Assembly: GCF_032118995.1 (NCBI RefSeq)
Contig: NC_092665.1
Coordinates: 11,078,512 to 11,142,511 of the forward strand
Source: Asterias amurensis
Taxonomy: Eukaryota > Echinodermata > Asteroidea > Forcipulatida > Asteriidae
Direction of reading: 5' to 3'
DNA: 64,000 nucleotides
This document shows positions 7,771 through 64,000 of this stretch, piece by piece. The notes beneath the pieces are model-generated. The model worked only from the letters and a program-made list of their open reading frames with translations, had not been told where the DNA came from and searched no databases. Positions within the stretch are counted from its first letter, which is position 1; each line of letters begins with the position of its first letter. The position numbers were made by a program, and so were the translations under genes.

Positions 7771-8262
7771 CAAGTATTCTGCCTGCTCATTGGTTTAGAG
7801 CGCGTCACATGAAATGTCTTAGTTTTGCTAGACGACGGCCGTGTGATAGTGCGTCGGTTTGCCATGCGCTAGTCCGAAGACTAGCACACGGCGCCGTGCG
7901 CTAGTCCGACAGACTAGCACACGGCGTGCAGTACCCAGACGTCCGTTGCGTGTACGAGGATGATAAATTAATAGTCTGTAACCATTTCGGATTGCACGAC
8001 ACTACATGCAACACAATAAGTAAAAGTGTTTGCAATCTGTATTCGCGTCGTCCGTGGATTGTAGCATTCAGGTCTGTAACTTAATAATAATAGTACAGTA
8101 TTTAGAAATGTTTGGGGTGTTATAAAACAAATATTGACTGCTTTTACTCGTGCAATGGTTAAAAACTATGACTCCCTCGGTGATCCCCGGAGCGTTCTAT
8201 TTTCCCTCGGGAGTCATAGTTTTAACCATAGCACTCGAAGCAGTCAATATTTGTATACTAGT
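7754..8262. repeat. composite inverted-repeat region
   Basis: ATAACACCCC at 7756 and its inverse GGGGTGTTATAA at about 8113 bracket a segment with short GTGCGCTAGTCCG/AGACTAGCACACGG palindromes (7860-7930). Directly after lies a strong hairpin: CAAATATTGACTGCTTTTAC at about 8128 is inverted at about 8240, around ACTATGACTCCCTCGG. It is probably two neighbouring or nested MITEs. Confidence 0.6.
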
Positions 8263-8384
8263 TTATAGGTCTTTTTCAGGAGAGGATCGATAAACAACAC
8301 AAGTTTACAACAATCTTCTATAAACTTGTTTTGTTACTCATGTACGTGAGCAAGTCTTTGGGGTTAAGATACGGGGCCATGTAT

Positions 8385-8635
8385 ATTACAGGAACACATT
8401 GCCTTGGATCGGTCGAGTTGGTCCATGAAAAACGTTTGAAACCCTTTGTTGTGAAAGCATTTGAACCGTTTGTTATGAAATCGATGTGATTAGAAAACCG
8501 TTTTAAAAGTAGAATAATATAATGATCCACACAATATGCCTCTAAGTGCATGGTTTTCCCTTTACTTGGTGAACTAAGACTGTCGGCCATTTTATGGAGT
8601 CAAAAACTTGACTCCAAAAAGGGGGGAATAAAATA
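8385..8635 (+). mobile_element. MITE-C, half element
   Basis: It starts AGGAACACATTGCCTTGGAT, the family terminus, and runs through the TGATCCACAC and GGTTTTCC landmarks to the TGGAGTCAAAAACTTGACTCC turn near 8600. The second arm is missing. The 90-residue minus-strand frame here is created by the repeat and also occurs in part at other copies. Confidence 0.65.
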
Positions 8636-8827
8636 AAGTAAAATGAAATACAATTTAAAAAATAAATAAATGAATAAGTAGGAAATGTGAATTGCAATCT
8701 TGTCAGCATAAACCGTTTTAAGAAATTTAATTACAAAATTATATTGAGTTTTACTAAAATTACTTCAATTTTCAGAATATTGAGTAATGATCTTTCTTCA
8801 GTGATTACTTCCCAAAGCGCCGCCAAC

Positions 8828-9064
8828 ATGTCTCAGCCATCTTTAAAACAGTGGTATGAAGACCGGAAGAGGTTAAGGGTCGTCTATGATCATTCCAGGG
8901 CAAAACCGGTAGAAAGGGAAGAACAAAATCAAGAAGAGTAGACAGGCAGCTTTCAAGTCTGCATTAGCAGAGAGGACAAAGCCATCGGGACAGCATCAAG
9001 ACACCAAGACGAACACGTCAGATTCATCATTGGGCAACGAACAATGCGGAGCACAAGGAAATAG
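8828..9064 (+). CDS. NLR gene 1, putative first coding exon with a frame break
   Basis: A start codon opens 37 codons (MSQPSLKQWYEDRKRLRVVY, then DHSRAKPVER...) that end at TAG 8939-8941. From about 8912 a different frame (+1) is open to a good donor (GT at 9065) and encodes a basic, Ser/Thr-rich stretch (KSRQAAFKSALAER and on). That frame ends two bases into a codon, which the next exon at 9386 completes exactly as Arg. Dropping one base near 8910 would join the two halves. So this is either a coding exon carrying a 1 nt indel (mutation or assembly error) or an exon whose true start or splice I have not found. No homologous domain recognised. Confidence 0.4.
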
Positions 9065-9385
9065 GTACCGTATATTGCATTCACTCAAACAATATCGAAA
9101 GTAGAGGGTGTAGGCCTATTATGGAGTTTTCAAGAAGTTCCAAGCTCCATGAGCCCAAATACTACATTTCTGAGGGGAACTGATTGAACGATTGTTTTGA
9201 GACAAAAATCTTTGTGTTATGATGCTAAAGTTCCTTGAGCAAAATGTTTTTCAGCTCAACTGCTTTACGCAAGTTTTTTTATGACCTTGATTTAAATTCA
9301 AATACGAACAAAATATCTTTATTGTCTACAAGCAGTGAATGAGGTATTTCATGAAAACATCCAATTCTAATTCTCATCTCTACAG

Positions 9386-9584
9386 AGACGAAGCCTCATC
9401 CCATAGAAGCAAAGACACTCATCACATGATACAGATCTTTATCAAGACGCCCATCAACCACAAAACCCTCTGTCTACGACTCGATCATAAAACAACCGTC
9501 TCTGACCTGAAAGACACCATTCACAGGAAGTTGGCCATTCGTCCCGCATTGCAAAATCTGTACACAAACAACAAAAGGTTTAAG
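9386..9584 (+). CDS. NLR gene 1, ubiquitin-like domain, first half
   Basis: The exon begins after a TCTCTACAG acceptor and ends in phase 0 at GT 9585. It encodes a ubiquitin-fold N-terminus, starting MIQIFIKTPINHKTL about 14 residues in, followed by LRLDHKTTVSDLKDTIHRKL and a YTNNKRFK strand. This lines up with the ubiquitin order QIFVKT-x-GKT...VEPSDTIENVKAKIQDK...LIFAGKQL. An upstream in-frame ATG at 9339 lies before the acceptor and could serve as an alternative unspliced start. As a domain in an NLR it would act in protein-protein contact rather than be conjugated. Recognition is by eye. Confidence 0.7.
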
Positions 9585-9940
9585 GTATTGGTCTACGTAA
9601 AACTAATTTTGATTTATGAACCATTCACCTTTGCATTTATAAATTTGTCTAAATGAATCACCATGGTTCGTTTTATCACACTTCAGGGAAGGGACAAGAT
9701 GGGACCAAGAGTTGTTTTCACAAAGGTTACTAAATGGAAAAACAAATACTGGATGGTTACAACGACGGCTCGTATTATATCTTGAAATAAATTATGAAAA
9801 GAAAAAGTTGATCTGCGAAGATATAGAACAAGAATGAAACACGTACTGAAAACATAACGGAAGTAATCCAAGCAGAGAATTAAAAATATCATCGTTTATA
9901 TAAGTTTTGTTAAAGTTTCTTTCCCCCTTTATTTTCCCAG

Positions 9941-10037
9941 TTGTGTGACGCTTTGACTCTTCTTGATCTTGGCATTAAACCGGAGACAAACATTGATCTA
10001 ACACTAGCAGAAGGTTTGCTTGGTGGCGCCCCAGCAC
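9941..10037 (+). CDS. NLR gene 1, ubiquitin-like domain, second half
   Basis: The acceptor is TTCCCAG and the donor GTGAGT at 10038. Entry is phase 0 and exit phase 1. It encodes LCDALTLLDLGIKPETNIDL then TLAEGLLGGAPA. This matches the last third of a ubiquitin fold ([23 protein letters not shown]), including a terminal Gly-Gly in GLLGG. Translation continues past the Gly-Gly into the Death exon, so it is an integral Ubl domain and not a precursor with a free end. The exon is too short to appear as an isolated open frame but agrees in phase with both neighbours. Confidence 0.7.
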
Positions 10038-10728
10038 GTGAGTTTTTCATGACGTGTCAGTCTTTGTGTTGTTTTTCTCCACACAGTGAAATGAAATTCG
10101 TCTTTGTTTACACCTTTTAATTGATTGATTATCAATAAAATGAAACTAAGGAACATTTAACCTAACGAAATCTCAAATTCAGTGACATTATTTTTTTTTC
10201 AAGCTGCATTTGATTTTTCATAATATTATTTGTTGTCTTTTGTATGAAACAATGATGCAACATGGCTATGATAATTGAATGATTTTTATGGTGTTATGAT
10301 CAATATCCTTGGTTATTGTGTCATTTTGTAAGCTATAATTATAAGAAGTTCTTACACTTTGGATAATGGGGACAACTTCCGGTTAACAAAAATTCAGCTG
10401 AAACTTCCTTGAACGACTATGCTTTTTGTGCAAGGAAGTTGGTGGGATTGAGCAGATAACGTTCAAGAACCAACGTTCATAAGATGGAAAATGAATCTTT
10501 ACATTAATATGAATTCCAATCCCTGTTGATTATTTTGTTTTTCCAAAATGTTTTTTTTTTTTTTGCCAAAAGATCAGCAGCAGATCAGACATTTCTGAGA
10601 CATGCATTCTTACACGTAACTGTATTTGAGAAGGACATTAATCTCATTAAGAAGGTCTGAAGGGGAAGCTTCCTGTATAAGATTGTTCATTAGTGTTTTA
10701 TTCTCTAAAATGTTTTGGCCTGGAGCAG
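10038..10728. other. intron between Ubl and Death exons
   Basis: AT-rich intron, about 690 bp, with long T runs. No repeat family or internal exon recognised. Confidence 0.6.
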
Positions 10729-10980
10729 TAGACGAGACATTCCGACGGACTTTAGCGGTAAACCTCGGCAAGGACTGGCAGCAGCTCGCAGTCAAGCTTA
10801 AGTTCAGACCAGCAGAGATTGGCAAGTTTGAACGTTTCGCTGAGAGCAACCCAGAAGAACAGGCTTACACGATGCTAGTTTCTTGGTGGAGCAAGCAGGC
10901 TGATGACAGAGAAGCGGTAGAATGGTTGAGAAGTGCTTTGGCTCAAATAGGTCGTCGAGATTTAGCTGCAAGGATCCCAG
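10729..10980 (+). CDS. NLR gene 1, Death domain exon 1
   Basis: This exon enters with two bases completing the codon left by the Ubl exon and leaves in phase 1 at GTGAGA. About 83 codons encode a six-helix Death-fold pattern: DETFRRTLAVNLGKDWQQLA, KLKFRPAEIGKFE, EQAYTMLVSWWSKQADDREA, VEWLRSALAQIGRRDLAARI. Landmarks are GKDWQQLA, AEI, LVSWW and the LxxALxxIGRxDLA end. It would mediate homotypic assembly of signalling complexes. A close paralogue lies on the minus strand at 63385-63639, with one extra residue (SEQQADD against SKQADD). Confidence 0.85.
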
Positions 10981-11110
10981 GTGAGAATATGGTTGGATTA
11001 TCTTCTTTTTTTTTAAATATGAAACACTATAATCGTCTCTCTGTAGAAAAAGGAATACGTGCACAATGTTTTGTTTTATTCTTACATGAATACAATATTA
11101 TTGATGACAG

Positions 11111-11209
11111 GTTACGAACCCACATCCCCAAGAGCAGGTGTATCAGATACCGATGAGATGAAACAACGAATTCTTGAGGCAGACAGGACTGATTTGCCAC
11201 AAACCTCAG
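11111..11209 (+). CDS. NLR gene 1, linker exon 1 (33 codons)
   Basis: Flanked by AG and GTAAAC, phase 1 in and out. It encodes GYEPTSPRAG, then VSDTDEMKQRILEADRTDLP, then QTSG. It lacks the NKGKSP insert seen in the next copies. First of a tandem series of exon-plus-intron units. Low complexity, Ser/Pro/Asp rich, likely flexible. Confidence 0.7.
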
Positions 11210-11348
11210 GTAAACATTCCAAACATGAACTAATACGTTGAAACAAGTAAAACGTCACGGCAGGCAGGTTATTTTGTAGTAGTGGCATTTTATTTTGTTA
11301 GGAAGATTTTACGATAAAAACCTTTGTGTGTTGTCATACTTATTGTAG

Positions 11349-11468
11349 GTTACGAACCCACATCCCCAAGAGCAGGTAACAAAGGGAAGTCACCAGATGC
11401 ATCAGATACTGATGATAAGAAACTACGAGTCTCTGAGGCAGACAGGACTGATTTGCCACAAACCTCAG
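11349..11468 (+). CDS. NLR gene 1, linker exon 2 (40 codons)
   Basis: Acceptor TTATTGTAG, donor GTAATC, phase 1-1. It encodes GYEPTSPRAGNKGKSPDASD followed by TDDKKLRVSEADRTDLPQTS and G. The front part equals the pre-Death segment of the Death exons at 12441, 13857 and 62418. The rear part (ADRTDLPQTSG) resembles their last helix (GRADLVELISG). Confidence 0.75.
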
Positions 11469-11589
11469 GTAATCCTTCCACTCTTGAATTATGTCAGCAT
11501 TTAACGTTAAAACAAATTGCGGCAGGCATGTTATTTTATTAATAAGATTTTACGATAACACCCTTTATGTGTTGTCATTCTTCTTGTAG

Positions 11590-11709
11590 GTTACGAACCC
11601 ACATCTCCAAGAGCAGGTAACAAAGGAAAGTCGTCAGATGCATCGGGAGTTGATGAGAAGAAACTACGAGCCTCTGAGGCAGACAGGACTGATTTGCCAC
11701 AAACCTCGG
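11590..11709 (+). CDS. NLR gene 1, linker exon 3 (40 codons)
   Basis: Acceptor TTCTTGTAG. The last codon before the donor GTAAAC reads TCGG where the other copies have TCAG, which weakens the donor slightly. It encodes GYEPTSPRAGNKGKSSDASG then VDEKKLRASEADRTDLPQTS and G. The spacing from exon 2 is 241 bp, the period of the array. Confidence 0.75.
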
Positions 11710-11826
11710 GTAAACCTTCCAATCTTGAACTATGTCAGGAATACGTTGAAACAAGTAAAGTTGCGGCAGGTATATTAAATTACTTATAAGATAAAACTCT
11801 TTGTGTGGTTGTCATTCTTTTTGTAG

Positions 11827-11853
11827 GTCATGCACCCCACTCCCGAAGAGCAG
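11827..11853 (+). CDS. NLR gene 1, truncated linker mini-exon (9 codons)
   Basis: The array unit here has lost about 130 bp: exon sequence GHAPHSRRAG runs straight into downstream intron sequence (CTTCGCGGCAGGCATG). The internal GCAG-GTAACA just downstream would act as a donor. It would make a 27 bp exon that is still phase 1-1, so the reading frame is preserved if used. Whether it is spliced in is unknown. Confidence 0.4.
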
Positions 11854-11936
11854 GTAACAACAAACTTCGCGGCAGGCATGTTTTGTTAGTAAGATTTTAC
11901 AATAAAACCCTTTGTGTGTTGTCATTCTTCTTGTAG

Positions 11937-12074
11937 GTTATGTACCCGCATCCCTAAGAGCAGGTAGCAAGAGGCAGTCACCGGAACATCGGTCAACATC
12001 CGATGCATCAGGTATTGATGAGAAAAAGTTACGAGTCCCTCAGGCAGACAGGACTGATTTGCCACAAACCTCAG
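11937..12074 (+). CDS. NLR gene 1, linker exon 5 (46 codons)
   Basis: Acceptor TTCTTGTAG, donor GTAAAC, phase 1-1. It encodes GYVPASLRAGSKRQSPEHRS, then TSDASGIDEKKLRVPQADRT, then DLPQTSG. It carries the longer SKRQSPEHRSTS insert seen in the Death exon at 12441. Confidence 0.75.
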
Positions 12075-12191
12075 GTAAACCTTCCAATCTTGAACTATGT
12101 CAGGAATACGTTAAAACAAGTAAAGTTGCGGCAGGTATATTAATTTACTTATAAGATAAAACTCTTTTTGTGGTTGTCATTCTTTTTGTAG

Positions 12192-12323
12192 GTCATGCAC
12201 CCCACTCCCGAAGAGCAGGTAACAAGAGGCAGTCACCGGCACATCTGTCTGATGCATCAGGTATTGATGAGAAGAAACTACGAGTTCCTGGGGCAGACAG
12301 GACTGATTTCCCACAAACCTCAG
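12192..12323 (+). CDS. NLR gene 1, linker exon 6 (44 codons)
   Basis: Acceptor TTTTTGTAG, donor GTAAAC, phase 1-1. It encodes GHAPHSRRAGNKRQSPAHLS, DASGIDEKKLRVPGADRTDF and PQTSG. Last of the linker series; the next unit in the array, 249 bp on, is a Death exon. Confidence 0.75.
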
Positions 12324-12440
12324 GTAAACATTCCATTCTTGAACTATGTCAGGAATACGTTGAAACAAGTAAAGTTGCGACAGGTATATCAATTTACTTA
12401 TAAGATAAAACTCTTTGTGCGGTTGTCATTTTTCTTGTAG

Positions 12441-12768
12441 GTCATGTACCCCACTCCCGAAGAGCAGGTAGCAAGAGGCAGTCAACGGAACCTCAGTCAA
12501 CATCCGATGCATCAGGTATTAATGAGATGTTAGGAGTCGTAGCTGAGAATATTGGAAAAGATTGGAAGCAACTCGGGACATCTTTAGGCATTAAAGCTGC
12601 ACAGATTGACACATACCCAATTGACCAACCAAATGACGTCAAAGAGCAGATCAAATGCTGCGTGATTGGGTCTGGAAACAAACAAGCCAAAAGGAGTCTG
12701 AAGATGGGTTGATAGAGACGCTTGTCAAACTCGGCCGTGCTGACATTGTTCAAATGTTACATTTGTAA
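12441..12768 (+). pseudogene. NLR gene 1, damaged Death exon (frameshift, donor lost)
   Basis: It enters in phase 1 after TTTCTTGTAG. It encodes the linker GHVPHSRRAGSKRQS and a Death domain start (INEMLGVVAENIGKDWKQLG, IKAAQIDTY). After VKEQI about 4 bases are missing relative to the paralogue (EQIFRMLLDWF), and the frame runs to TGA at 12710-12712. In the shifted frame the rest of the domain is readable (MLRDWVW...EDGLIETLVKLGRADIVQML) up to TAA at 12766-12768. The donor present after the last Leu codon in sister exons is gone, replaced by CATTTG. If included it would end the protein after one and a half Death domains. Confidence 0.8.
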
Positions 12769-12882
12769 AATCACACCTTGTTGTTGCTCATGTTTGTCTC
12801 CAGTGAACATAGTGTCGTTGCCCCTTGGCTTACCAGTGAAAATTTTCAGCGACATGTACATCTTTCATTCAGTTCGAATTAA

Positions 12883-13418
12883 AGTCACCTCGAAAAAAAA
12901 AAAAATCTTCAAACATTAGAGCACATGTTAATGAACAAGACAATAATTGTTTGAGTAATCGTTTGTAACGATTTATATGTTTAAAAAATAGATAAAGTTG
13001 TTTTGGGGTGACTACGCCTACCCCTTTTGTGACGTCAATCGAGGCAGACTTTTCCTCGATCGAGCATTGAACACACATACGTGCAAGTACATGCAAGTCC
13101 TAGTAGTGAGTTTGTACGTTTCGAAAAAAGGTTTAATTATTGCATTTTTCCGGCAATGTCGACTACGTATATTGCTGCTGGAGGCAACTAAAATGGGGTC
13201 AGCTTGCAAAGTGGTCCGGTCCGACGTCTTTTCCAGCGCCGTTGTGCTTCAAATATCGCGCCTCGATTGACGTCACGAACAGCGCCCTCTCGGGTCGGGC
13301 CTACTTTTAAATTTGTTAATAAAATGGAAACTAAATTTTTAGAACCTTAGTTAACTGTTTATTCAAATTTTTCAGTGCCAAAAGCTTTATTTTGACAAAA
13401 TACCACTTCAAGGTGACT
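12883..13418. mobile_element. MITE-E copy 1 (TTAA target), in a gene 1 intron
   Basis: TTAA lies at 12879-12882 and 13419-13422, with inverted ends AGTCACCT / AGGTGACT. The interior shares GAGGCAGACTTT, TTTTTCCGGCAATG and the GACGTCA words with the copy at 34424-34917. It lies just 3' of the damaged Death exon. Confidence 0.75.
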
Positions 13419-13520
13419 TTAAGTAAGCAAAACTTTATCGACTAAAATGCAGACCAGATGTATTATTTTATTGATAGGATTGAATACAACGCAATTTCTG
13501 GTTACTTTTTTCCCTTAAAG

Positions 13521-13781
13521 ATCATGCACGTATTGATGAAAAGTTGTTACTAGTCCTATCTAGGAAGATTACTAAAGGTTGGAAGGAACTAAGCATAACT
13601 TTAGGCATTGAAACTGCACAGATCGACACATATGCAGAGAACTACCCAAATGTCCTCAACGAACAAGTCTTCAGGATGCTACTGGATTGGTTTAGAGGGC
13701 AACCAAACAAAGAGGCGGCGGAAGACGGGCTGAAGAAGGCGCTTTAAGAAATCGGCCGGGCTGACGTTGTCAGTATATTAG
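13521..13781 (+). pseudogene. NLR gene 1, Death exon with in-frame stop
   Basis: Acceptor TTCCCTTAAAG and donor GTATAT at 13782 are intact; length 87 codons, phase 1-1. The Death domain reads IDEKLLLVLSRKITKGWKEL, ETAQIDTYAENYPN, LNEQVFRMLLDWF and EDGLKKAL. Then comes TAA (13745-13747) where the sister exon at 13857 has AAA (KKALKEIG), followed by EIGRADVVSILG in the same frame. So a single A-to-T change cuts the last helix. The pre-Death linker is also absent (only DHAR precedes IDEK). Including this exon stops translation before NACHT; skipping it keeps frame. Confidence 0.85.
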
Positions 13782-13856
13782 GTATATGCTTTATTTTAAT
13801 AGGATTTTTGATAGGATTGAATGAAACAAAATTTCTGGTTGCTTTTCTTCTTTCAG

Positions 13857-14195
13857 ATGATGCACACACATCCCAAGGATCAAGTGTGATAGACGAAGTT
13901 CACTGCAGGCAGCTAAAGGAACATCAGTCAATACCCGAAATACCAGGTATTGATGATAAGTTGTTACGAGTCGTAGCTGATAATATTGGAAAAGATTGGA
14001 AGAAACTCGGCACTTTTTTAGGCGTTACAGCTGCACAGATTGACACATATGTAAATGACTACCCGAGTGACCTCAACGAACAAGTCTTCCGAATGCTCCT
14101 GTATTGGTGGTGTAGACATGAACGGGAGGCGCCTGAAGACGGGTTGAAGAAGGCACTTAAAGAAATCGGTCATACTGAAATCGTCAGCAAATTAG
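13857..14195 (+). CDS. NLR gene 1, intact Death domain exon
   Basis: Acceptor TTCTTTCAG, donor GTATGC, 113 codons, phase 1-1. It starts with a linker (DDAHTSQGSSVIDEV and on) and then a full Death fold: IDDKLLRVVADNIGKDWKKL, GTFLGVTAAQIDTY, NDYPSDLNEQVFRMLLYWW, EDGLKKALKEIGHTEIVSKL. Signature points are GKDWKKLG, AAQID, EQVFRMLL and the LKxALKEIG end. It is the only undamaged copy directly upstream of the NACHT exon and hence the most likely Death domain joined to it. The nearest relative in the window is the minus-strand exon at 62098-62418. Confidence 0.85.
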
Positions 14196-14432
14196 GTATG
14201 CTTTATTTTAAAAACCTGTAAGTTTCCCTTTTACTTGAAAGTTGAAATAAAACGACCCATTCCATAAAGTTATTCCTCTGTTGGCAGTTCACATGTTGTA
14301 TCGTAAAATCCCTGGCTTCGCGGCAGTTCAGGCTGTATGGTTTCTGACTGGCACCCCTGAGCTCAGGTTTTAACAGAATAGCGAGACCACCAGATTTTAA
14401 GACCTAAATTGAAGACCTAATATTTTTTTCAG
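14196..14432. other. short intron before the NACHT exon
   Basis: This intron has donor GTATGC and a long T run ending TTTTTTTCAG. No internal feature seen. Confidence 0.7.
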
Positions 14433-17400
14433 GTGAGATGGAGCAGCCCTCAAAGAAGCTGGCAAAGAATTTGGTGAGGCGTTACAAGGAGACGTTGAAA
14501 GTGAACACACATCCTACAGTTAAGCGTCTAGCTCGTGATATGAAAAATTTTTATGTAAGTTTAGAACTTTTGCAAGAAACAAACCAACCTGATAATCCAC
14601 TCATATTGCAGTCTGGTTTAATTAAGGGAAGACATGAAACAGATCACACAATGCACATTGACATTGAAGGCGAACACGAGCCCGATAAAACCCAAACAGA
14701 GTATAAGAAAATTCCTCTCAAGTCATACGAAGACATGTTGAGCTTGGATAAGAACAGAATCCTAATCACTGCTGAAAGTGGGTATGGTAAATCAACGCTT
14801 CTAAAGAAGATAGCTTATGACTGGGCTGTTTTACAGAGTGATACTCAATCGACCCGCCAAAAACAAGAGTCGCCTCTGTCAAAGTATGAACTCGTCTTTT
14901 TGTTGGAAATAAACAATATGGAGGCAAAGTTCAACATTACGGATGAAATATCTTCTCAAATAATATTGCTTGAAAAAGAATTTGGGAAAAAGAGTCTTGA
15001 AAATTATATGACTCAAAACCCAGAGAAGGTTCTCATCCTTCTTGATGGAGCAGACGAAATCTCATTTGAGAAACTTGAAAAGGCAAAAGAATACTTCAGT
15101 GTAAACAACGTCCTCTCATTCAAGTCGCTTATACACTGTAAGACGATTGTAACAAGTCGTCAATCTACGGCTCTTAAGTTACTGACTTGCAATCCAAATT
15201 TCACACGAGTGAATATAAATGGATTCGATGACAAAAATAAGAAAGAATATATCCGCAAATTCTTCTGCAACCATGATCCCCAACATCATGATCGAGTATT
15301 TTCTGAAATAAATAAGTCGGAAACATTGCGCAGTTTAGGGGAGATTCCTCTGTTTCTTTGGCTGATGTGTTCGTCATTAACACCTGCCAAAAGTCGATTA
15401 CCTGACAGGATTACAGAACTTCTTATTGACGCAATCAGCATAATCCATAAGCAAAAGATGAGCAAGGAATGGAAATCAGACATCCATAAGAAAATAACCG
15501 AGAAGGGGTTTAAAGAGCTGGTGGTCAAACTTGGGCAGGTTGCACTTGAACGTTTGGTGTTAAAAAGCCATGCACAAAATTCCTTCGCAGTTTCAGAGTT
15601 TGATTCAGAAGACCTTGTCAGTTTGGGATGTGAGGTTGGCTTGCTGACCCGAGTTCAATTCATGCACGGTATAGAAGAGGTTGAACGAGTCCATTTCTAC
15701 CACATTATATTCATGCAGTATTGTTGTTCCGTTTACCTGTCTCATATGGTAGAGTCAAATCCTGATAAATTCAACGAGTACATGTCAAAATTACTAGCAG
15801 GTGATGTAGACAGAATTGGATACTTACTCCGTTTCTGCAGTGGGGGTAACAGAAAAGCTGCAGAATGTGTTATAGGACTGACCAGAAAACACCTTTCAGA
15901 TTACAATAAAAACACTCCCGTTGAATGTGAGAGGTATGTCTGTTTACATAAGATAATGATGCTGGCTTTGTTTGAAGCCAAGCTTGGTTCGACTGTAAAA
16001 ACCCTCGCGATGGATGAGTGGGTACGATTCCCATATGAGCTGAAAGGAGAAGACCTCTTGGCTGCACATTATTTCATTCAAAACCTACCAGAACGATTCA
16101 GTCTTCATCACGTTTCTGATATAAATACATTGTGTCAAGGAACAACCGATTTTGATATTGTAGAACAAATAATGGCTAGAACAAGGTGTGATTTATCATT
16201 ACAAGTAGTTGGAGTCAACATGAACGACAAGATTCAACAACTCAACAACATTTCTGCATTTGTAACATCACTCACGTTAAGAGATTGTCAGTTAAGCTGT
16301 GTCTCTGTCCCTCAACTTTTTGAGTTATTTCAATCAGCTGCCAAGTTGAAGAAAGTGTGCTTGGTGGGAAACAACTTGCACGGTTTGAAATCAGACCAAA
16401 TACCTCACATTTCTTCCTTAGAGGTTTTGATTTTGGATAGATGTAAGCTTACGAAGGATGACATTGGGCCAGTTTTCTCCATCATGGCTGCTGCAGGTAG
16501 TGTAACGACACTTGCTCTAAGTGACAACGATCTCCATGGTATTAAGGGGGACCGGATGACTGCTGTTTCTTCCTTGAAGGAATTGCATCTAAACGCGTGT
16601 GGTATACAGAGTGATGATATTGGGTCAGTTTTCTCCATCATGGCTACTGCAGGTAGTGTAACGAGACTTGCTCTAAAGGATAACGATCTCCATGGTATTA
16701 AGTGTGAACAGATGACCCCAGTTTCTTCCTTAAAGGAGATGCATCTATACGCGTGTGGTATAAAGAGTGACGGTGATGTTGGGTCAGTTTTCTCCATCGT
16801 GGCTGCTGCAGGTTGTGTAACGAGACTTGTTTTAAAGGACAACGATCTCCATGGTATTAAGGGGGACCAGATGAGTGTTGTTTCTTCCTTGAAGGAATTG
16901 CATCTATACACGTGTGGTATAAAGAGTAATGACATTGAGTCAGTTTTCTCCATCGTAGCTGCTGCAGGTAGTGTAACGACACTTGCTCTAAGGGACAACG
17001 ATCTCCATGGTGTTAAGGGGGACCAGATGACTGCTGTTTCTTCCTTGAAAGAATTGCAACTATACGCGTGTGGTATAAAGAGTGATGATATTGGGTCAGT
17101 TTTCTCCATCGTGGCTGCTGCAGGTAGTTTAACTAAACTTGTTCTATCGCATAACGATCTCCATGGTATTAAGGGGGACCAGATAACTCCAGTTTCTTCC
17201 TTGAAGAAATTGGAATTTTACTCGTGTGGTATACAGAGTGATGACATTGGGCCAGTTTTCTCAATCGTGGGTGCTGCAGGTAAAGTAACTGAACTTTTTC
17301 TAAAGGATAACGATCTCCATGGTATTAAGGGGGACCAGATGACTGCTGTTTCTTCCTTGAAGGAACTTTATCTAGACGCGTGTGGTATAAAGAGTGATGA

Positions 17401-20400
17401 TATTGAGTCAGTTTTCTCCATCGTGGCTGCTGCAGGTAGTGTAACGAGACTTGTTCTAAAGGACAACGATCTCCATGGTTTTAAGGTGGGCCAGATAAGT
17501 CCTGTTTCTTCCTTGAATGGATTGCATCTTTACGCGTGTGGTATACAGAGTGATGATATTGGGCCAGTTTTCTCCATCGTGGCTGCTGCAGGTAGTGTAA
17601 TGGGACTTGTTCTTAAGGATAACGATCTCCATGGTATTAAGTGTGACCAGATAACCCCAGTTTCTTCCTTGAAGGAATTGCATCTGTACGCGTGTGGTGT
17701 TAAGAGTGATGACATTGGGTCAGTTTTCTCCATCGTGGCTGCTGCAGGTAGTGTAATGGGACTTGTTCTAAAGGATAACGATCTCCATGGTATTAAGTGT
17801 GACCAGATAACCCCAGTTTCTTCCTTGAAGGAATTGCAACTATACGCGTGTAGTATAAAGAGTGATGATATAGGGTCAGTTTTCTCCATCATGGCTGCTG
17901 CAGGTAGTGTAACGACACTTGTTCTAAGGGACAACGATCTCCATGGTATTAAGGGGGACCAGATGACTGCTGTTTCTTCCTTGAAGGAATTGCATCTATA
18001 CGCGTGTGGTATAAAGAGAGATGATATTGGGCCAGTTTTCTCCGTCGTTGCTGCTGCAGGTAGTGTAACGAAACTTGCTCTAAGGGACAACGATCTCCAT
18101 GGTATTAAGGGGGACCAGATGACCACAGTTTCTTCCTTAAAGGAGTTGCATCTATACGCGTGTGGTATAAAGAGTGATGGTGATGTTGGGTCAGTTTTTT
18201 CCATCGTAGCTGCTGCAGGTAGTGTAACGACACTTGCTCTAAGGGACAACGATCTCCATGGTATTAAGGGGGACCAGATGACTGCTGTCTCTTCTTTGAA
18301 AGAATTGCAACTATACGCGTGTGGTATTAAGAGTGATGATATTGGGTCAGTTTTCTCCATCGTGGCTGCTGCAGGTAGTGTAACTAAACTTGTTCTAACG
18401 GATAACGATCTCCATGGTATTAAGGGGGACCAGATAACTCCCGTTTCTTCCTTGAAGGAATTGGAATTTTACTCGTGTGGTATACAGAGTGATGACATTG
18501 GGCCAGTTTTCTCAATCGTGGGTGCTGCAGGTAAAGTAACTAAACTTTTTCTACAGGATAACGATCTCCATGGTATTAAGGGGGACCAGATGACTGCTGT
18601 TTCTTCCTTGAAGGAATTTTATCTAGACGCGTGTGGTATAAAGAGTGATGATATTGAGTCAGTTTTCTCCATCGTGGCTGCTGCAGGTAGTGTAACGAGA
18701 CTTGTTCTAAAGGACAACGATCTCCATGGTATTAAGGGGGGCCAGATAAGTCCTATTTCTTCCTTGAATGGATTGCATCTTTACGCGTGTGGTATACAGA
18801 GTGATGATATTGGGCCAGTTTTCTCCATCGTGGCTGCTGCAGGTAGTGTAATGGGACTTGTTCTAAAGGATAACGATCTCCATGGTATTGAGTGTGACCA
18901 AATAACCCCAGTTTCTTCCTTGAAGGAATTGCATCTGCACGCGTGTGGTTTAAAGAGTGATGATATTGGGTCAGTTTTCTCCATCGTGGCTGCTGCAGGT
19001 AGTGTAATGGGACTTGTTCTAAAGGATAACGATCTCCATGGTATTAAGGGGGACCAGATGACTGCTGTTTCTTCCTTGAAGGAATTGCATCTATACGCGT
19101 GTGGTATAAAGAGTGATGATATTGGGTCAGTTTTCTCAATCGTGGCTACTGCAGGTAGTGTAACGACACTTGCTCTAAAGGATAACGATCTCCATGGTAT
19201 TAAGTGTGACCAGATAACCCCAGTTTCTTCCTTGAAGGAATTGCAACTATACGCGTGTAGTATAAAGAGAGATGATATAGGGTCAGTTTTCTCCATCATG
19301 GCTGCTGCAGGTAGTGTAACGACACTTTTTCTAGAGGATAACGATCTCCATGGTATTAAGTGTGACCAGATAACCCCAGTTTTTTCCTTGAAGGAATTGC
19401 AACTAGTCGCGTGTGGTATAAAGAGTAATGACATTGAGTCAGTTTTCTCCATCGTGGCTGCTGCAGGTAGTGTAACGACACTTGTTCTAAAGGATAACGA
19501 TCTCCATGGTATTAAAGGGGACCAGATGACTGCTGTTTCTTCCTTGAAGGAATTGTATCTATACGCGTGTGGTATAAAGAGAGATGATATTGGGCCAGTT
19601 TTCTCCATCGTTGCTGCTGCAGGTAGTGTAATGATACTTGCTCTAAAGTATAACGATCTCCATGGTATTAAGTGTGAACAGATGACCCCAGTTTCTTCCT
19701 TAAAGGAGTTGCATCTATACGCGTGTGGTATAAAGAGTGATGGTGATGTTGGGTCAGTTATATCCATCGTGGCTGCTGCAGGTTGTGTAACGACACTTGT
19801 TTTAAAGGACAACGATCTCCATGGTATTAAGGGGGACCAGATGACTGCTGTTTCTTCCTTGAAGGAATTGCATCTATACACGTGTGGTATAAAGAGTAAT
19901 GACATTGAGTCAGTTTTCTCCATCGTAGCTGCTGCAGGTAGTGTAACGACACTTGCTCTAAGGGACAACGATCTCCATGGTATTAAGGGGGACCAGATGA
20001 CTGCTGTCTCTTCTTTGAAAGAATTGCAACTATACGCGTGTGGTATTAAGAGTGATGATATTGGGTCAGTTTTCTCCATCGTGGCTGCTGCAGGTAGTGT
20101 AACTAAACTTGTTCTAACGGATAACGATCTCCATGGTATTAAGGGGGACCAGATAACTCCCGTTTCTTCCTTGAAGGAATTGGAATTTTACTCGTGTGGT
20201 ATACAGAGTGATGACATTGGGCCAGTTTTCTCAATCGTGGGTGCTGCAGGTAAAGTAACTAAACTTTTTCTACAGGATAACGATCTCCATGGTATTAAGT
20301 GTGACCAGATGACTGCTGTTTCTTCCTTGAAGGAATTTTATCTAGACGCGTGTGGTATAAAGCGTGATGATATTGAGTCAGTTTTCTCCATCGTGGCTGC

Positions 20401-20905
20401 TGCAGGTAGTGTAACGAGACTTGTTCTAAAGGATAACGATCTCCATGGTATTAAGTGTGACCAGATAACCCCAGTTTCTTCCTTGAAGGAATTGCATCTG
20501 TACGCGTGTGGTTTAAAGAGTGATGATATTGGGTCAGTTTTCTCCATCGTGGCTGCTGCAGGTAGTGTAATGGGACTTGTTCTAAAGGATAACGATCTCC
20601 ATGGTATTAAGGGGGACCAGATGACTGCTGTTTCTTCCTTGAAGGAATTGCATCTATACGCGTGTGGTATAAAGAGTGATGATATTGGGTCAGTTTTCTC
20701 CATTGTGGCTGCTGCAGGTAGTGTAACTAAACTTGTTCTATCGCATAACGATCTCCATGGTATTAAGGGGGACCAGATAACTCCAGTTTATTCCTTGGAG
20801 TACTTGAATTTGACTGATTGTGGTCTGCAGACTGATGATTTAAGGTTGCTATCAATGGCCCTGAACATGGAATGCCATGGTTCTCTTCTTCGTAGACCAT
20901 TTTAG
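14433..20905 (+). CDS. NLR gene 1, NACHT plus giant LRR exon
   Basis: A single 6.47 kb exon enters in phase 1. Residues are counted from Met at 14438 (2155 residues). Residues 1-100 form a basic helical lead. NACHT: Walker A GYGKST at 115-120, Walker B VLILLDGADEI near 198-208, sensor TIVTSR at 236-241, then a winged-helix part with GEIPLFLWLMC at 301-311 and HIIFMQYCCSVYL at 422-434. From about residue 610 it is all leucine-rich repeat, with 28 tandem units of 52-53 residues, each a pair of ribonuclease-inhibitor-like LRRs. NLRs of this kind are cytosolic sensors that oligomerise through NACHT; the ligand here is unknown. No signal peptide or membrane segment. The C-terminus stops about 18 residues short of the two paralogues, whose ends read GSVLYxPPxTF and on. 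The internal ATG could also start translation without the upstream exons. Confidence 0.92.
16440..20810 (+). repeat. 156 bp coding tandem repeat, 28 units
   Basis: The word NDLHG recurs 28 times. The distance from the first GAT (16529) to the last (20750) is 4221 bp, equal to 27 periods of 156 bp plus 9. The extra 9 bp come from three units with one added codon (SDGDVG instead of SDDIG). Blocks of units are themselves repeated: units 2-4 resemble 21-23, and units 4-8 resemble 12-16 and in part 23-25 (shared EFYSCGIQSDDIGPVFSIVG, then the GKVTxLFL signature). This indicates repeated unequal exchange. Confidence 0.93.
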
Positions 20906-26759: not shown

Positions 26760-28698
26760 GATCATCAGGATAGGCATGTCAACCACACCCTTTGGCACAG
26801 AGCCAAGAGTGTGGCGCAGAGCCAAGAGTGAGGAGCGGAATGCATTTAAAGACAAGCAAACCACAGCGAGGCAGATCCAATGCAAGCTGAACAGTGTGAT
26901 GGTGGTTTGAGGTGGATGAGGATCATGAACAAATGATATAAATAGATGCTTTTGAAATCAAACAATACGAAAGAATTTCCCGACATATGTGAGAACGCAG
27001 AAGAACCATACCGCATATAACGGGTGAAGTTCAGAGCTACACGTTTGCTCTACATGGTATATCGGACTATGAACACGGCACATGAGTATTTATTCAGTCA
27101 GTCGCCAGACTAGTTAGAAAGCAGTATGACAACATTTGAGCTTACAAGGTTGATTCAGTATTAGAGAAGAACACCTCTCCTTTCTTGTCAGAATCATTAC
27201 CAGACGCCGATTCAGAGACGGGCCGTATACATGTACAATGGGAGTTTTTAGTCTTGACAGGCTAGGCATGTTTACAGGTAGGTGACATTCTCATGATCAC
27301 ACTTAAAAATACACTCAATCGTCATCCAGTTGTTTACGTTTTGTGACAATTGTGTTTGTTAAAAGCTGAGCAAATGCTTACTACCTCTTGTTTTGGGAAC
27401 GGTTCGACTGTTTTAATTATAATGTATGAAAGTTTATTTTCAAAAGGTGGTCACGATTTTGAGATATCTGAGCGAATAATGTCCCAGCATAAAGAATAAT
27501 CCCTAATGGGAATACACATAGAAGCGTCACTGCAGTGACGATTTTCAGATTTGTGCAGAACCGTAAATAACACACGTTCTTTGTTCATACAACAAACCAA
27601 GTAAATCGTTTGTTTCATTAATTAAATAGAAGCCTTGAAATCTATTTATAATCATATGACTCGATGTTTTTATTCATTGAAATTTTTTTTAAGTGAAATT
27701 CAGCAAAGTTCACGACTTGACATTTTCGTTCAAGCAGGTCATTTTAAAGTTTTTGTTTCAATCTTTGAGTAACATTTTGTTTTATTCCAAAACCTTTAAC
27801 ATTTTTTTTTTATTCCCAAAACTTCAATTATTGGAAAACATAGCTGAACAACAACGTTGGATAGAAGCCCTCAAACCCCTCAGAGACTGTAAAGAGTAGG
27901 CTGTGCCATCTTGTTTTTTCGCCCCTCCATAAAATCGTCGGAGGAGTGACGCCAAGTCATGTACTTCCAAATTCTCAACGCTTGGATTTTCACCCACACT
28001 CTTACACCAATCTGGAAGTAACTGACGTACAAAAATTAGTTTGAATAATAATAATCAAAAGCAGAAAAAATGAGCACAGTATTATGGCTTTGTCAGCCTA
28101 CCGAGATACTAGTACACAAACTTCAAATAAAACAGGCTTGTGAGACTTCTTATTTAGGAGAACACAATAGCTTTATTTAGTAACTAAGTTACGTAAGTTA
28201 AAACTTACGTAACTTAGGTAAATTAAGGACGGAGACTCCAACCTGCCAGACCAGGCTAACGGCTACTGGCGATCATAGGCCGCACCCTGGTTTAAGTGCT
28301 ACCCCGTACCTAATTAGTATTCATAATATTACTACGCCATCATACGAAAAGTAGTCCCATAACAACAGGAACATCTTCTGTTTTAATTTAGAAAAAAACA
28401 TTGCCAATTTTTACCCATCTTCTCTGGGGCATAAATTTTAATTATATTTTTTTGTAAAAAATTATTTCAAATGGAAATAAAATATGCCTGAAGGTAAATA
28501 TTGACCCTAACAATAATTTTGTTTGCAGTGGAAATTGTTTATAGGCGTATAGTGAAAACAAAATTTACCCATCCCAAGATAAAAATTTAGTTTATAGTAA
28601 ACTGCAATTGCTCTTAATACATATAATACAAAATGACAACAATTAAGATTTGTTTATATATTTACCTCGTATGATTCTTACATCCCACGCCGTTACGT
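26760..28698. other. intergenic, no gene recognised
   Basis: AT-rich. A 145 bp segment (27600-27745: GTGAAATTCAGCAAAGTTCA and flanks) is a partial copy of duplication Q found at 36195-36625 and 49225-49605. A short palindrome ACTTACGTAACTTAGG lies near 28190-28220. Nothing here resembles the NACHT or Death part that gene 2 lacks. Confidence 0.5.
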
Positions 28699-45060: not shown

Positions 45061-45931
45061 CGATTTCCAATTGACATGAAACTGTGTCAAAATTACGCAG
45101 AATACGAGTCAGAAACGTGGTCCGGTTGTTTGGAGTGTACTGTGTGTACGATTTTTGGCTTTGGAAGTAGTTTGCATCATGTCAGCTTCTTCGGGTTACG
45201 GACGGATGGGGGATTTAACCGAGTCGTTGCGTCCGCATTGGACTTTCTGGCTCAGTTAAACTGACCTGGTCAATCTTCCTAGGCGCCATTCGGGTCGGGT
45301 AAGTTACCTGGGAGGAAAACTTCCTGAGCATTGGACTTAAAATGGGTAAGTTACCCATTGGCTCGGTTAGTTTACCCAAATTAAGTCCAATGTGAACAGG
45401 GCTGTAAAGCCATCTGACTAAAGAACCGATTCGTGCATTAATTCTCAAATTCATTTTTTTTTTAGAATAATATTAACACAAACCTTTTTTTTTTCGGAGG
45501 ACATTATTTCTCAAATTGGCGGTAAACTGTAAACAGCTGCAGTTCTTCTCACCAAGTAATGGATACTTGGAATATTTACATATATGACCGTACCTTTCAC
45601 TCAAGTAAGCCAAGTTCGCGATAAAGTTCGAATACCTCAATTCAATAAATAATGTTTTTGTTAACTTGTTTAGAGAAACAAACAATCGATAACGTATACA
45701 AATTGGTTATAAGAACAGCCAGATTGACGTGTGATTTTTTAAGTATTTAATACGCGGTATATGGTTTTATTCTTAGTTTTAAAATCAACAATGATATCTA
45801 AGTTTTCACCAAAAGAAGTTATACTTCCACAGTGCAAAGTTTAAAAATCTTACTTATACCTAAGTTACCAAACATGATCAAACTTAATGTTCTTCTTATG
45901 TGGAATTTTTTCCCCCGTCAATAATGAATAG

Positions 45932-46194
45932 TCCACTAAATGATGTGTGGGTAGGTGTTGGCTTCCACGATCTACGCGAAACGGCGGCAGATGGCGCAAC
46001 TATCATCACAGGCCAATGGATAAAACATGACAAATTTGACCTTACGGGATCAGCAGACAACGATATCGCACTCATCAAGCTGGACCAACCTGCAGTACTC
46101 TCAAACAGGGTGCAGCCCATTGCAATTGTGAGTGCTGACAGTGATGTTGCGTGGGGAACCGATATATTGATCAGCGGCTGGGGAAAACTTAGTC
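45932..46194 (+). pseudogene. trypsin-like serine protease, exon with catalytic Asp
   Basis: Bounded by AATAG and a strong donor GTAAGT at 46195. The frame reads PLNDVWVGVGFHDLRETAAD, TGQWIKHDKFD, NDIALIKLDQPAVLSNRVQP and WGTDILISGWGKLS. This is the middle of an S1A peptidase, with the active-site Asp in NDIALIKL and the GWGKLS turn. The exon with the catalytic His (usually TAAHC) was not found upstream and no signal peptide is visible, so only part of the gene is here. Confidence 0.8.
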
Positions 46195-46222
46195 GTAAGT
46201 GTTAACTGGACCAATTCATTTT

Positions 46223-61579: not shown

Positions 61580-62097
61580 AAGGTGAATATACACGCCGGT
61601 CTCGAGAAAGGTCTCTGTCGTTATTCACAAGACTCGAAGTGTGACGTCAGATGTTCGCGCTTGGGGTATTCCAACTCCCTCCTCCTTCCCAGAGGTTTAT
61701 GAAAGTACTATGGGATTGTATTGGTTGAAACACATTAAAATCAAATTGATTAAAATGGCTATAAAAACATACGTCAGTGGCAAAACTTTTTATCTGATTT
61801 CTGAGTTTGGAAATTATATTTTAAACTTAACTTTTTATTTTTGTTTTACTTTATTCTTCTTCAGAGTATCTTATAACAAAATAGTACACTGCAAAAAGCA
61901 CTGAAATGGCCTTGTTTAGGACCAGAAATGCACCTCATTTTGCCGCTGCAAGTATAGCTTCTAATTATTTTTGATTTATTTCAATGGTACCCCAACATAT
62001 CCAAACAAGGATGTACACGCCGTTGACAACTGGACCAGCAAAACCCGTTTTTTGGGGGGCAGACATGAGCAAAACAAAAAATGAATGATTTAAATAC
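61580..62097. other. gene 3 intron, no further feature
   Basis: AT-rich intron sequence between the Death exon and the NACHT exon. One unsupported plus-strand frame (61641-61904). Confidence 0.55.
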
Positions 62098-62418
62098 CTG
62101 ATATTAACTCAACCAAGTCAGCACGGCCGAGTTTTGAAAACTCCTCCTTCAACTCGTCTTCAGCTTCCGCTTGGTTTTCTTTGTTTCTGAACCAATCAAG
62201 GAGCATCCGGAAGATTTGTTCTTTGAGGTTACTCGGGTGGTCGTTTTGATATGTGTCAATCTGTGCAGCTTTAATATCCAAATAAGTGCCAAGTTGCTTC
62301 CAGTCTTTTCCAATGTACTCGGAAAGGCGTCGCAACTTCTTCTCATTAATACCTGGTGCATTGGACGTTGCCGTTGACTTCCTCTCGATACCTGGTTTTG
62401 GGGACGGGGGTGCATGTC
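62098..62418 (-). CDS. NLR gene 3, intact Death domain exon
   Basis: Acceptor CTTGTTGTAG and donor GTATTT on the minus strand, 107 codons, phase 1-1. Linker HAPPSPKPGIERKSTATSNA, then Death fold INEKKLRRLSEYIGKDWKQL, KAAQIDTYQNDHPS, NLKEQIFRMLLDWF, EDELKEEFSKLGRADLVELI-SG. It shows what the damaged gene 1 exon at 12441 looked like before its deletion (EQIFRMLLDWF). It would join in frame to both neighbouring exons. Confidence 0.88.
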
Positions 62419-63290: not shown

Positions 63291-63384
63291 TCGAATAACC
63301 GTCAGATTGTTAGGGTTTAGAGCCAGATCAGCCATTTATATTTATTTTATCTAGTTTCCAATCTAGTTTCCAAGTCCAACAAAC

Positions 63385-63639
63385 CTGGGATCTTTGCAGC
63401 TAAATCTTGACGATCTATTTGAGCCAAGGCACTTCTCAACAATTCCCCCGCTTCTCCGTCATCAGCTTGCTGCTCACTCAACCAAGAAACTAACATCTGA
63501 TGAGCCTGTTCCTCTGGGTTGCTCTCAGCGAGACGTTCAAACTTGCCAATCTCTGCTGGTCTGAACTTAAGCTTGACTGCGAGTTGCTGCCAGTCCTTGC
63601 AGAGGTTTACCGCTAAAGTCCGTAGGAATGTCTCGTCGA
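63385..63639 (-). CDS. NLR gene 3, Death domain exon 1
   Basis: On the minus strand, acceptor GGAAGAACAG and donor GTTTGT; two entry bases, 84 codons, exit phase 1. It encodes DETFLRTLAVNLCKDWQQLA, KFRPAEIGKFERLAESNPEE, QAHQMLVSWLSEQQADDGEA and LLRSALAQIDRQDLAAKIPG. It is the paralogue of 10729-10980, about 85% identical by eye, with one extra Gln and with GKDW changed to CKDW. Its Ubl exons, if present, lie beyond the right edge. It lacks an ATG of its own, so it is only seen by homology. Confidence 0.88.
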
Positions 63640-64000
63640 CTGTTCTTCCGGCAAGACGTTTTTAGAAAGTAAAAAAAAAACTTCTGAATATTAAAAAAAA
63701 TGACATCAGAGGATTCTTCTTTATCAAGACAGTTGTAACAAGTTTCGCCGTTATTTTACGGACTTTTCATAAATGCAAATATTAATTTTGCTAATTAGCG
63801 TAAACATTTAAAAATCAAACAAAACAGAAACATTAAAACACAAGCAAATCCAGATAATTGCAAAAACAGCAACCAAAACAAAACACCGTAGCAATAGGAG
63901 GAAGTGACAACAATTTAAAAGTAAAAACCATAGAATGGACTAAAAACCCTCAAAAGCCAAAATAAAACTGGTACAGATAATAGCTTTTAAAACAATGAAG
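63640..64000. other. upstream intron of gene 3, to the window edge
   Basis: AT-rich, with no exon seen. In gene 1 the Ubl exon lies 690 bp before the Death exon, so the corresponding exon of gene 3 would fall just outside the window. Confidence 0.6.

Follow-up and report, generated by a model that had tools for sequence, protein, structure and literature searches.

Ubiquitin-like exons ahead of the Death and NACHT-LRR exons in a multiplied receptor gene family of the sea star Asterias amurensis

The window analyzed here is a stretch of 64,000 nucleotides of the Asterias amurensis genome (assembly GCF_032118995.1, contig NC_092665.1, positions 11,078,512 to 11,142,511). It carries a NACHT-LRR receptor gene on the forward strand (gene 1) and, at its far end on the reverse strand, exons of a second member of the same family (gene 2); the exons, in positions of the window, are as follows.

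8828..9064, + strand: gene 1, upstream coding exon for a basic N-extension; no Pfam match, frame-broken here
9386..9584, + strand: gene 1, exon 1 of the ubiquitin-like domain (Ubl), first half of the beta-grasp; in-frame ATG at 9426
9941..10037, + strand: gene 1, Ubl exon 2; ends in GLLGG-APA, phase 1 donor GTGAGT
10729..10980, + strand: gene 1, Death1 exon; 50.1 bits, acceptor common with gene 2, alternative start 10726
11111..11209, + strand: gene 1, linker exon 1, phase 1-1
11349..11468, + strand: gene 1, linker exon 2
11590..11709, + strand: gene 1, linker exon 3
11937..12074, + strand: gene 1, linker exon 4
12192..12323, + strand: gene 1, linker exon 5
12441..12768, + strand: gene 1, Death2 exon; frameshift, end approximate, intact in sister copy C18:11065k
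13521..13787, + strand: gene 1, Death3 exon; in-frame TAA at 13745-13747, ends approximate
13857..14195, + strand: gene 1, Death4 exon; 47.0 bits
14433..20905, + strand: gene 1, NACHT-LRR exon; NACHT 58.2 bits (cut-off 26.7), LRR_8 209.6 bits
59738..61258, - strand: gene 2, NACHT exon, shortened and adjoining a reverse-transcriptase ORF
62096..62344, - strand: gene 2, second Death exon
63383..63640, - strand: gene 2, Death1 exon

Gene 1 displays the features of an NLR, namely a NACHT domain, LRRs that follow it C-terminally within one exon (an array of 27.8 units of 156 bp, 16457-20797) and a Death-fold before the NACHT. Ubl exon 2, Death1, the five linker exons and Death4 each end in phase 1 and lead into the NACHT-LRR exon; the phase matching from Ubl to Death to NACHT-LRR described in the initial annotation of this DNA is thus kept throughout the chain. 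That annotation placed a single Death exon between them: the exon is present (Death1), but gene 1 has four, Death1 and Death4 being open and Death2 and Death3 broken by a frameshift and a stop, respectively. It also began the gene at the Ubl exons, which is too far downstream, as the upstream coding exon at 8828-9064 is conserved in the sister genes. In gene 1 this exon is one base longer than in the sister copies and its frame is therefore broken. With damage in the first exon, Death2 and Death3, the window gene may be a decaying copy; its joined product was built with the Death1 start at 10726, omitting Death2 and Death3.

The Ubl exons of gene 2 lie immediately beyond the window edge, at C18:11142849-11143358. 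No start codon is found between the in-frame stop and the Death domain in its Death1 exon, which consequently requires an upstream exon. Death1 was also considered as the first coding exon and rejected; an ATG lies directly ahead of it in gene 1 and is absent in gene 2.

In a Pfam profile search the joined Ubl exons of gene 1 matched PF00240 with 33.1 bits (cut-off 25.4, E 4.9e-8), so the two short exons passed the HMM check proposed when they were first read as a ubiquitin-like domain. Exon 2, which gave no match to this profile alone, extends the same alignment, since exon 1 alone scored 25.3 bits; as a control, 1348 joins to phase-0 acceptors across the window were compared, and the one at 9941 gave the best ubiquitin continuation (score 35, runner-up 31). 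Other copies scored 33.3 and 36.4 bits (C2) and 27.3 bits (C14) against the same cut-off. The Ubl family profile matched single ubiquitin chains in PDB with E ~4e-11, and hhalign aligned it to the genome's own ubiquitin with a probability of 97.8 (E 7e-13, 36% identity), the alignment running through the GG; an NCBIfam search returned no family. Core hydrophobics, at the positions generally given for ubiquitin, are kept at 15 of 15 sites in five of six representatives and at 14 of 15 in the other. We infer from these matches that the Ubl would fold as a ubiquitin-type beta-grasp. The Gly-Gly with which the fold had been said to end is there (GLLGG), but the chain does not end with it and continues into APA and the remainder of the protein. 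The ubiquitin-like exons ahead of Death-NACHT-LRR are thereby confirmed as real, and their extent is larger than previously stated.

Genome searches recovered at least 26 Ubl exon pairs; all genome-wide counts are lower bounds, the best-scoring candidates only having been taken. Among the matches listed, 21 of these pairs have a NACHT match downstream on the same strand within 25 kb (20 of them within 10 kb) and none has one on the opposite strand within 10 kb; the remaining five have no downstream NACHT match, and one of these has its Ubl exons 8.5 kb apart. Seen from the other side, a Ubl lies upstream of 21 among the 58 NACHT matches listed. The C18-type query matched the C2 copies only weakly, and C14- and C2-type queries were therefore added, one yielding C2:9675k plus exon 1 of both C14 copies and the other no further pair. 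The 12 closest copies (C18-type) have Death1 in 11 cases, and in 10 of the 11 read the N-exon and both Ubl exons are open, with lengths modulo 3 of 2, 1 and 1, the exception being the window gene; sister gene C18:11065k has an open frame in every exon up to NACHT. The Death tally took in the 13 Death1-like matches among the 45 listed; the remaining 32 include no match on C2 or in the vicinity of the C14 Ubls. By eye, N-exons of the C18 clade seem akin to those of the C2 clade, a YDHS stretch being common to both, while tblastn of the N-exon (E up to 1) gave no link between these clades. C14 carries two Ubl copies, and the one that was searched lies ahead of a TRADD-N/SAMD9-like gene.

At the level of predicted gene structure, this comparison establishes that the Ubl is encoded by coding exons 2 and 3 in a family of NLR genes which has multiplied in this genome, and that the C18-type order is N-extension, Ubl, two or three Death, NACHT and LRR.

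Pooled dN/dS values were 0.288 for the Ubl, 0.123 for Ubl exon 2 and 0.549 for Death1, and in 11 copies the first intron diverged by 23.5% vs 4.2% for the Ubl exons; by these estimates the Ubl is under purifying selection. Identity between Ubl lineages is 35-72%. All 26 copies, which stand for about five lineages rather than 26 independent ones, keep GL[LM]GG, and the residue that comes next is small in each (A, T, G or C) and Pro in none. Four of the last five columns of the tail are invariant in six representatives, a modest result (P 0.016) under random placement of invariant columns. The C-terminal tail of ubiquitin sits outside the fold, so folding does not account for the conservation of the GG tail. 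In the same six representatives the Ile44 patch is lost (I44 to Y, V or S; V70 to T, R, Q or S; L8 to I, P, S or G) and the Ile36 patch is retained (I36 and L73 in 6/6); Arg72 of ubiquitin is Gly in 6/6, depending on the alignment, and two extra residues lengthen the tail relative to ubiquitin.

Could the Ubl and the receptor be two neighboring genes, with an NLR gene lying behind a small gene for the Ubl? The Death1 acceptor is indeed weak (rank 106 of 472, on a general consensus splice matrix), and by eye a read-through past Ubl exon 2 would yield a short Ubl protein. Nevertheless, the Ubl-NLR block has been duplicated as a unit at many sites on C18, C20, C3 and C2, the phases match, the donor GTGAG follows the Ubl in 12/12 C18-type copies, and Death1 of gene 2 needs an upstream exon. 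We regard this arrangement as hardly tenable, since comparative genomics finds the Ubl exons travelling with the NLR block; the single Ubl-Death-NACHT-LRR gene of the initial annotation is instead strongly supported by the joint duplication, the splice sites and phases conserved in C18-type copies and the purifying selection. Also very improbable is that the Ubl was fused once and has been carried along with no function of its own. Tandem duplication alone would multiply such a passenger, but the low dN/dS beside diverged introns, the lack of a stop in the Ubl of any of the 12 C18-type copies and its retention both across such divergent lineages and on another receptor class stand against it.

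The remaining readings give the Ubl a role. Ubls inside large proteins are mostly uncut docks, those of Parkin, HOIL-1 and TBK1 being examples, and in the same way the Ubl could stay on the receptor, bind ubiquitin-binding proteins, E3 ligases or kinases and couple the Death platform to ubiquitin signalling. This is possible and agrees with the kept fold core, the I36 and L73 residues and the purifying selection; however, the L8/I44/V70 patch is absent from the six representatives, and to our knowledge integral Ubls as a rule do not retain the Gly-Gly that is kept here in 26/26 copies. Ordinary docking is disfavored because of these two features. Proteases activate NLRP1 or CARD8, and a further reading takes Ubl-LxGG as bait that a microbial deubiquitinase or papain-like protease would cleave, thereby altering the N-terminus and triggering the receptor. 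That several receptor lineages conserve LxGG with a small residue behind it, and that the module occurs on both NLRs and a SAMD9-like gene, would suit such a decoy; against it, no FIIND was detected when the NACHT-LRR exon and the N-terminal product of gene 1 were scanned with Pfam, and conservation is higher in the Ubl than in the Death domain, whereas bait domains tend towards fast evolution. We consider it decidedly unlikely.

We tentatively propose, at somewhat less than even confidence, that the Ubl is a processable unit acting through its conserved GL[LM]GG tail on a Death-type NLR; processing or reading through the GG tail appears more likely than a plain dock, and Gly-Gly followed by an extension, as in processed Ubls, is found in 26/26 copies. 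The LRRs would sense, the NACHT would oligomerize and the Death domains would recruit adaptors, as in other Death-type NLRs, while a deubiquitinase-type peptidase would recognize LxGG and split N-extension-Ubl from Death-NACHT-LRR, either while the protein is being made, as happens with ubiquitin fusions and FUBI-S30, or as a regulatory step. The cut would set the amount or activity of the receptor and may release a small modifier. The change of R72 to G and the longer tail would be obstacles to canonical activation by E1 and perhaps also to the fit of a peptidase. The Ubl, formerly suggested to recruit ubiquitin-pathway partners, may rather be cut or read by them. Rather unlikely is the broader scheme in which shuffling has brought a detachable unit, N-extension-Ubl-GL[LM]GG, to two classes of STAND receptors (NLR and SAMD9-like), their state being set by deubiquitinase-type cleavage, as host control or microbial tripwire, that releases a receptor-born modifier.

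Invertebrate NLRs are numerous and their signalling mode is little understood. A Ubl under selection, with an enzyme-readable Gly-Gly, upstream of so many NACHT matches in one genome allows the position of a cut, its product and the partners to be predicted; if true, the receptor's own sequence would link NLRs to the ubiquitin system, and if the detachable-unit reading holds, an immune receptor would double as a ubiquitin-like precursor. The presence of the module on a SAMD9-like gene as well points to shared control.

Ubiquitin fusions with ribosomal proteins and FUBI-S30 share with this family the beta-grasp profile and a GG followed by another protein; they differ in that the Ubl is here on a receptor, with an N-extension ahead, R72 changed to G and the Ile44 patch lost. 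A FUBI origin of the Ubl was rejected despite similar tails, identity being 34-41% to ubiquitin vs 27-32% to the genome's FUBI, the latter approximate for a sequence joined by eye. Ubl searches of the genome (E up to 1) matched ubiquitin though not the FUBI gene, and the S30 that follows the Ubl in FUBI-S30/FAU was not found after it, the two S30 matches sitting at C1:18118471-18119134. As to SAMD9/SAMD9L, the likeness lies in one of the C14 Ubl genes, whose large exon matches PDB SAMD9 (E 7.9e-93), and the difference in the Ubl and TRADD-like N domain ahead of that exon; neither is known in front of human SAMD9.

In the available parts of the published accounts (PMC8913654, PMC2575513, PMC12909245), Death- or DED-NACHT proteins are described from sea urchin, amphioxus, sponges and the sea cucumber Chiridota, with Death, DED, CARD, Ig and others among their domains and only one LRR-bearing NLR reported in Chiridota; a Death-fold ahead of NACHT and expanded gene families are common to them and to the sea star, and the Ubl-Death-NACHT-LRR order was not found in those parts. 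Earlier work very likely already depicts an NLR with a ubiquitin domain, as the legend of Fig. 2 in an account of the sponge Dysidea avara lists UBQ (ubiquitin) among NLR domains, with no Gly-Gly statement in the portion of that account available (PMC12909245). Likewise, what is available of the account of TRADD-N expansions in marine invertebrates (PMC8195603) yielded no Ubl with Death-NACHT-LRR and no discussion of processing; it does name Ub among the joined domains and echinoderms among the expanded lineages, and the C14 gene described here fits these expansions.

The joined ubiquitin-like (Ubl) exons of the plus-strand NLR, which connect in phase 0 and encode 85 residues from the ATG at 9426, matched PF00240 (ubiquitin) with 33.1 bits (E 4.9e-8; curated Pfam cut-off 25.4), so the ubiquitin-like domain proposed in the initial annotation is borne out by HMM search; its Death domain likewise, as Death1 and Death4 passed the Pfam cut-offs, together with NACHT and LRR_8. 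Ubl exon 1 by itself reached 25.3 bits, just under the same cut-off, and exon 2 by itself had no Pfam match; as a control, every phase-0 acceptor join that the window offers, 1348 in number, was scored as a continuation of ubiquitin, and acceptor 9941 ranked first. Splice sites were also ranked with a general consensus matrix over the 472 AG and 404 GT within 8001-15000, placing the acceptors of Ubl2, Ubl1 and Death1 at 1, 7 and 106, and the donors of Ubl2 and Ubl1 at 3 and 46. Joined from ATG 9426, the gene is open over 2643 residues; this model leaves aside both broken Death exons, as well as a short candidate at 11827. Features of this region and further along the window are as follows.

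8828-9064 (+), additional coding exon ahead of the Ubl (N-exon)
9386-9584 (+), Ubl exon 1
9941-10037 (+), Ubl exon 2
11111-12323 (+), five linker exons, all phase 1-1, resembling tandem copies of the Death-exon start
16457-20797 (+), 156-bp LRR unit repeated 27.8 times with 87% matches, read as a recent sensor expansion or conversion
28675-30399 (+), 574-aa LRR-only ORF with the same repeat type as this gene and no Pfam NACHT
45888-46205 (+), trypsin-domain exon, 44.4 bits

The window by itself does not show whether Ubl and NLR form one gene, as the second, minus-strand NLR gene runs out at the window edge. The Death1 exon of that gene shares acceptor and phase with its plus-strand counterpart and lacks a start codon in the stretch from an in-frame stop to the domain, thus an upstream exon is needed; a genome search located its Ubl exons directly beyond the edge. 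A reverse-transcriptase ORF (58378-59232, plus strand; RVT_1, 67.1 bits) lies inside this gene near the point where its NACHT exon stops, and the gene looks disrupted by a non-LTR element; its intron at 62560-63270 contains tandem and inverted repeats.

The assembly (491.5 Mb, 23 contigs), in which the window occupies C18:11078512-11142511, contains 58 NACHT matches. Using the window Ubl as query we recovered 12 close exon pairs (ten on C18 and single pairs on C20 and C3; C18-type) and a diverged set on C2; queries of C14 and C2 type raised the total to 26.

C18-type, 12 pairs
C2:4.77-5.03 Mb, 10 pairs
C2:9675k, one pair
C2:19112k, one pair
C14, two pairs

These copies are not independent events and occupy at least six separate genomic places. 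A same-strand NACHT match lies downstream within 25 kb in 21 of the 26 (20 within 10 kb), none has an opposite-strand NACHT within 10 kb, and a Ubl lies upstream of 21 of the 58 NACHT matches. The five remaining pairs are both C14 copies, C18:10962k, C18:12825k and C2:5025k, the last with 8.5 kb between its two exons. Death1 accompanies 11 of the 12 C18-type copies and was absent within 10 kb of the other 14. At the sequence level, co-duplication of the Ubl with the NLR gene is firmly indicated. Two Death-NACHT genes at C16:13484863-13496307, having Death1-like exons 46-48% identical and no Ubl match, may be relatives that lack the module.

All 12 C18-type copies share the splice sites of the two Ubl exons and keep ATG 9426, where translation could start. 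In 10 of the 11 copies read, the N-exon and the two Ubl exons form open frames whose lengths modulo 3 are 2, 1 and 1 (the C20 locus stops short of the start and was excluded), the window gene being the lone exception by one extra base in its N-exon. In a sister gene at C18:11065k every exon up to NACHT is in open frame and three Death exons are intact; with the anatomy of the N-exon and Ubl, these frames indicate a C18-type order of N-extension, Ubl, two or three Deaths, NACHT and LRR. The order Ubl-Death-NACHT-LRR first proposed therefore stands by comparison, except for its single Death exon, since the window gene has two open and two broken. In two C2 copies (L061, L036) the Ubl is preceded by a reading frame that resembles the N-exon by eye, a link that tblastn did not recover, and the C2 and C14 copies examined lack a Met directly ahead of IQIF. 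In L059 and L061, also on C2, a frame of 371 or 630 residues follows the Ubl and precedes NACHT; these frames contain no Pfam domain above cut-off, and no Death was found in them or by tblastn. The structure of the Ubl-NLR family is, on this genomic evidence, well established.

On C14 (L062, 15892500-15902400, minus strand) the Ubl is followed first by a TRADD-like N domain, at 27.4 bits against a cut-off of 23.7, and then by a frame of 1655 residues that matches SAMD9 with E 7.9e-93, so that, by adjacency in this one copy, the Ubl unit would be carried by two receptor classes, NLR and SAMD9-like. The frames of the other C14 copy are alike by eye.

Pooled pairwise dN/dS was 0.288 for the Ubl (12 copies; exon 1, 0.383; exon 2, 0.123), 0.549 for Death1 (11 copies) and 0.219 for the N-exon (9 copies, leaving out the window gene, with 10962k and C20 missed by the search pattern); copy pairs are not independent, thus these values are descriptive. 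Compared over one set of 11 C18-type copies, C20 being omitted for its long intron, first introns diverge by 23.5% versus 4.2% for Ubl exons. Constraint on the Ubl sequence is clearly indicated.

Against the PDB, the Ubl family profile matched single ubiquitin chains at E ~4e-11; the best 60 of 328 matches are ubiquitin, ubiquitin fusions and engineered variants, the affilins among them. Alignment by hhalign to ubiquitin of the same genome gave E 7e-13. At what we take to be the ubiquitin core, hydrophobic residues occupy 15/15 positions in five representatives and 14/15 in one. The Ile44 patch is lost, I36 and L73 are kept, R72 is replaced by G, Lys27 is retained in 6/6, and Lys48 and Lys63 are not retained in this alignment of six. 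The tail GL[LM]GG, evidently conserved, occurs in 26/26 copies (C2:9675k from its printed reading frame); the next residue is A, T, G or C.

Folding and processing of the Ubl, and signalling by the receptor, are what we infer from these features. We tentatively favour GG-dependent processing of the Ubl over docking, because the needs of the fold do not explain why a tail that lies beyond it is conserved, and because Gly-Gly is as a rule missing from integral docking Ubls yet is kept throughout here; a docking domain is accordingly a somewhat less probable reading, at roughly one chance in three by our estimate. The boldest variant, a microbial tripwire, seems improbable.

In the parts of the open-access literature searched, the order Ubl-Death-NACHT-LRR was not found, and the passages found of a sea urchin paper contain no ubiquitin-like NLR. 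The nearest precedents in those parts are a Dysidea avara NLR figure legend naming UBQ (PMC12909245), TRADD-N proteins with Ub among the joined domains (PMC8195603), a Chiridota NLR list, an Ig-NACHT receptor of sea cucumber, an amphioxus report, and sacsin, which carries a Ubl and whose paralogues carry Death (PMC3710099). By identity, the Ubl described here is closer to ubiquitin (34-41%) than to the FUBI of its own genome (27-32%).
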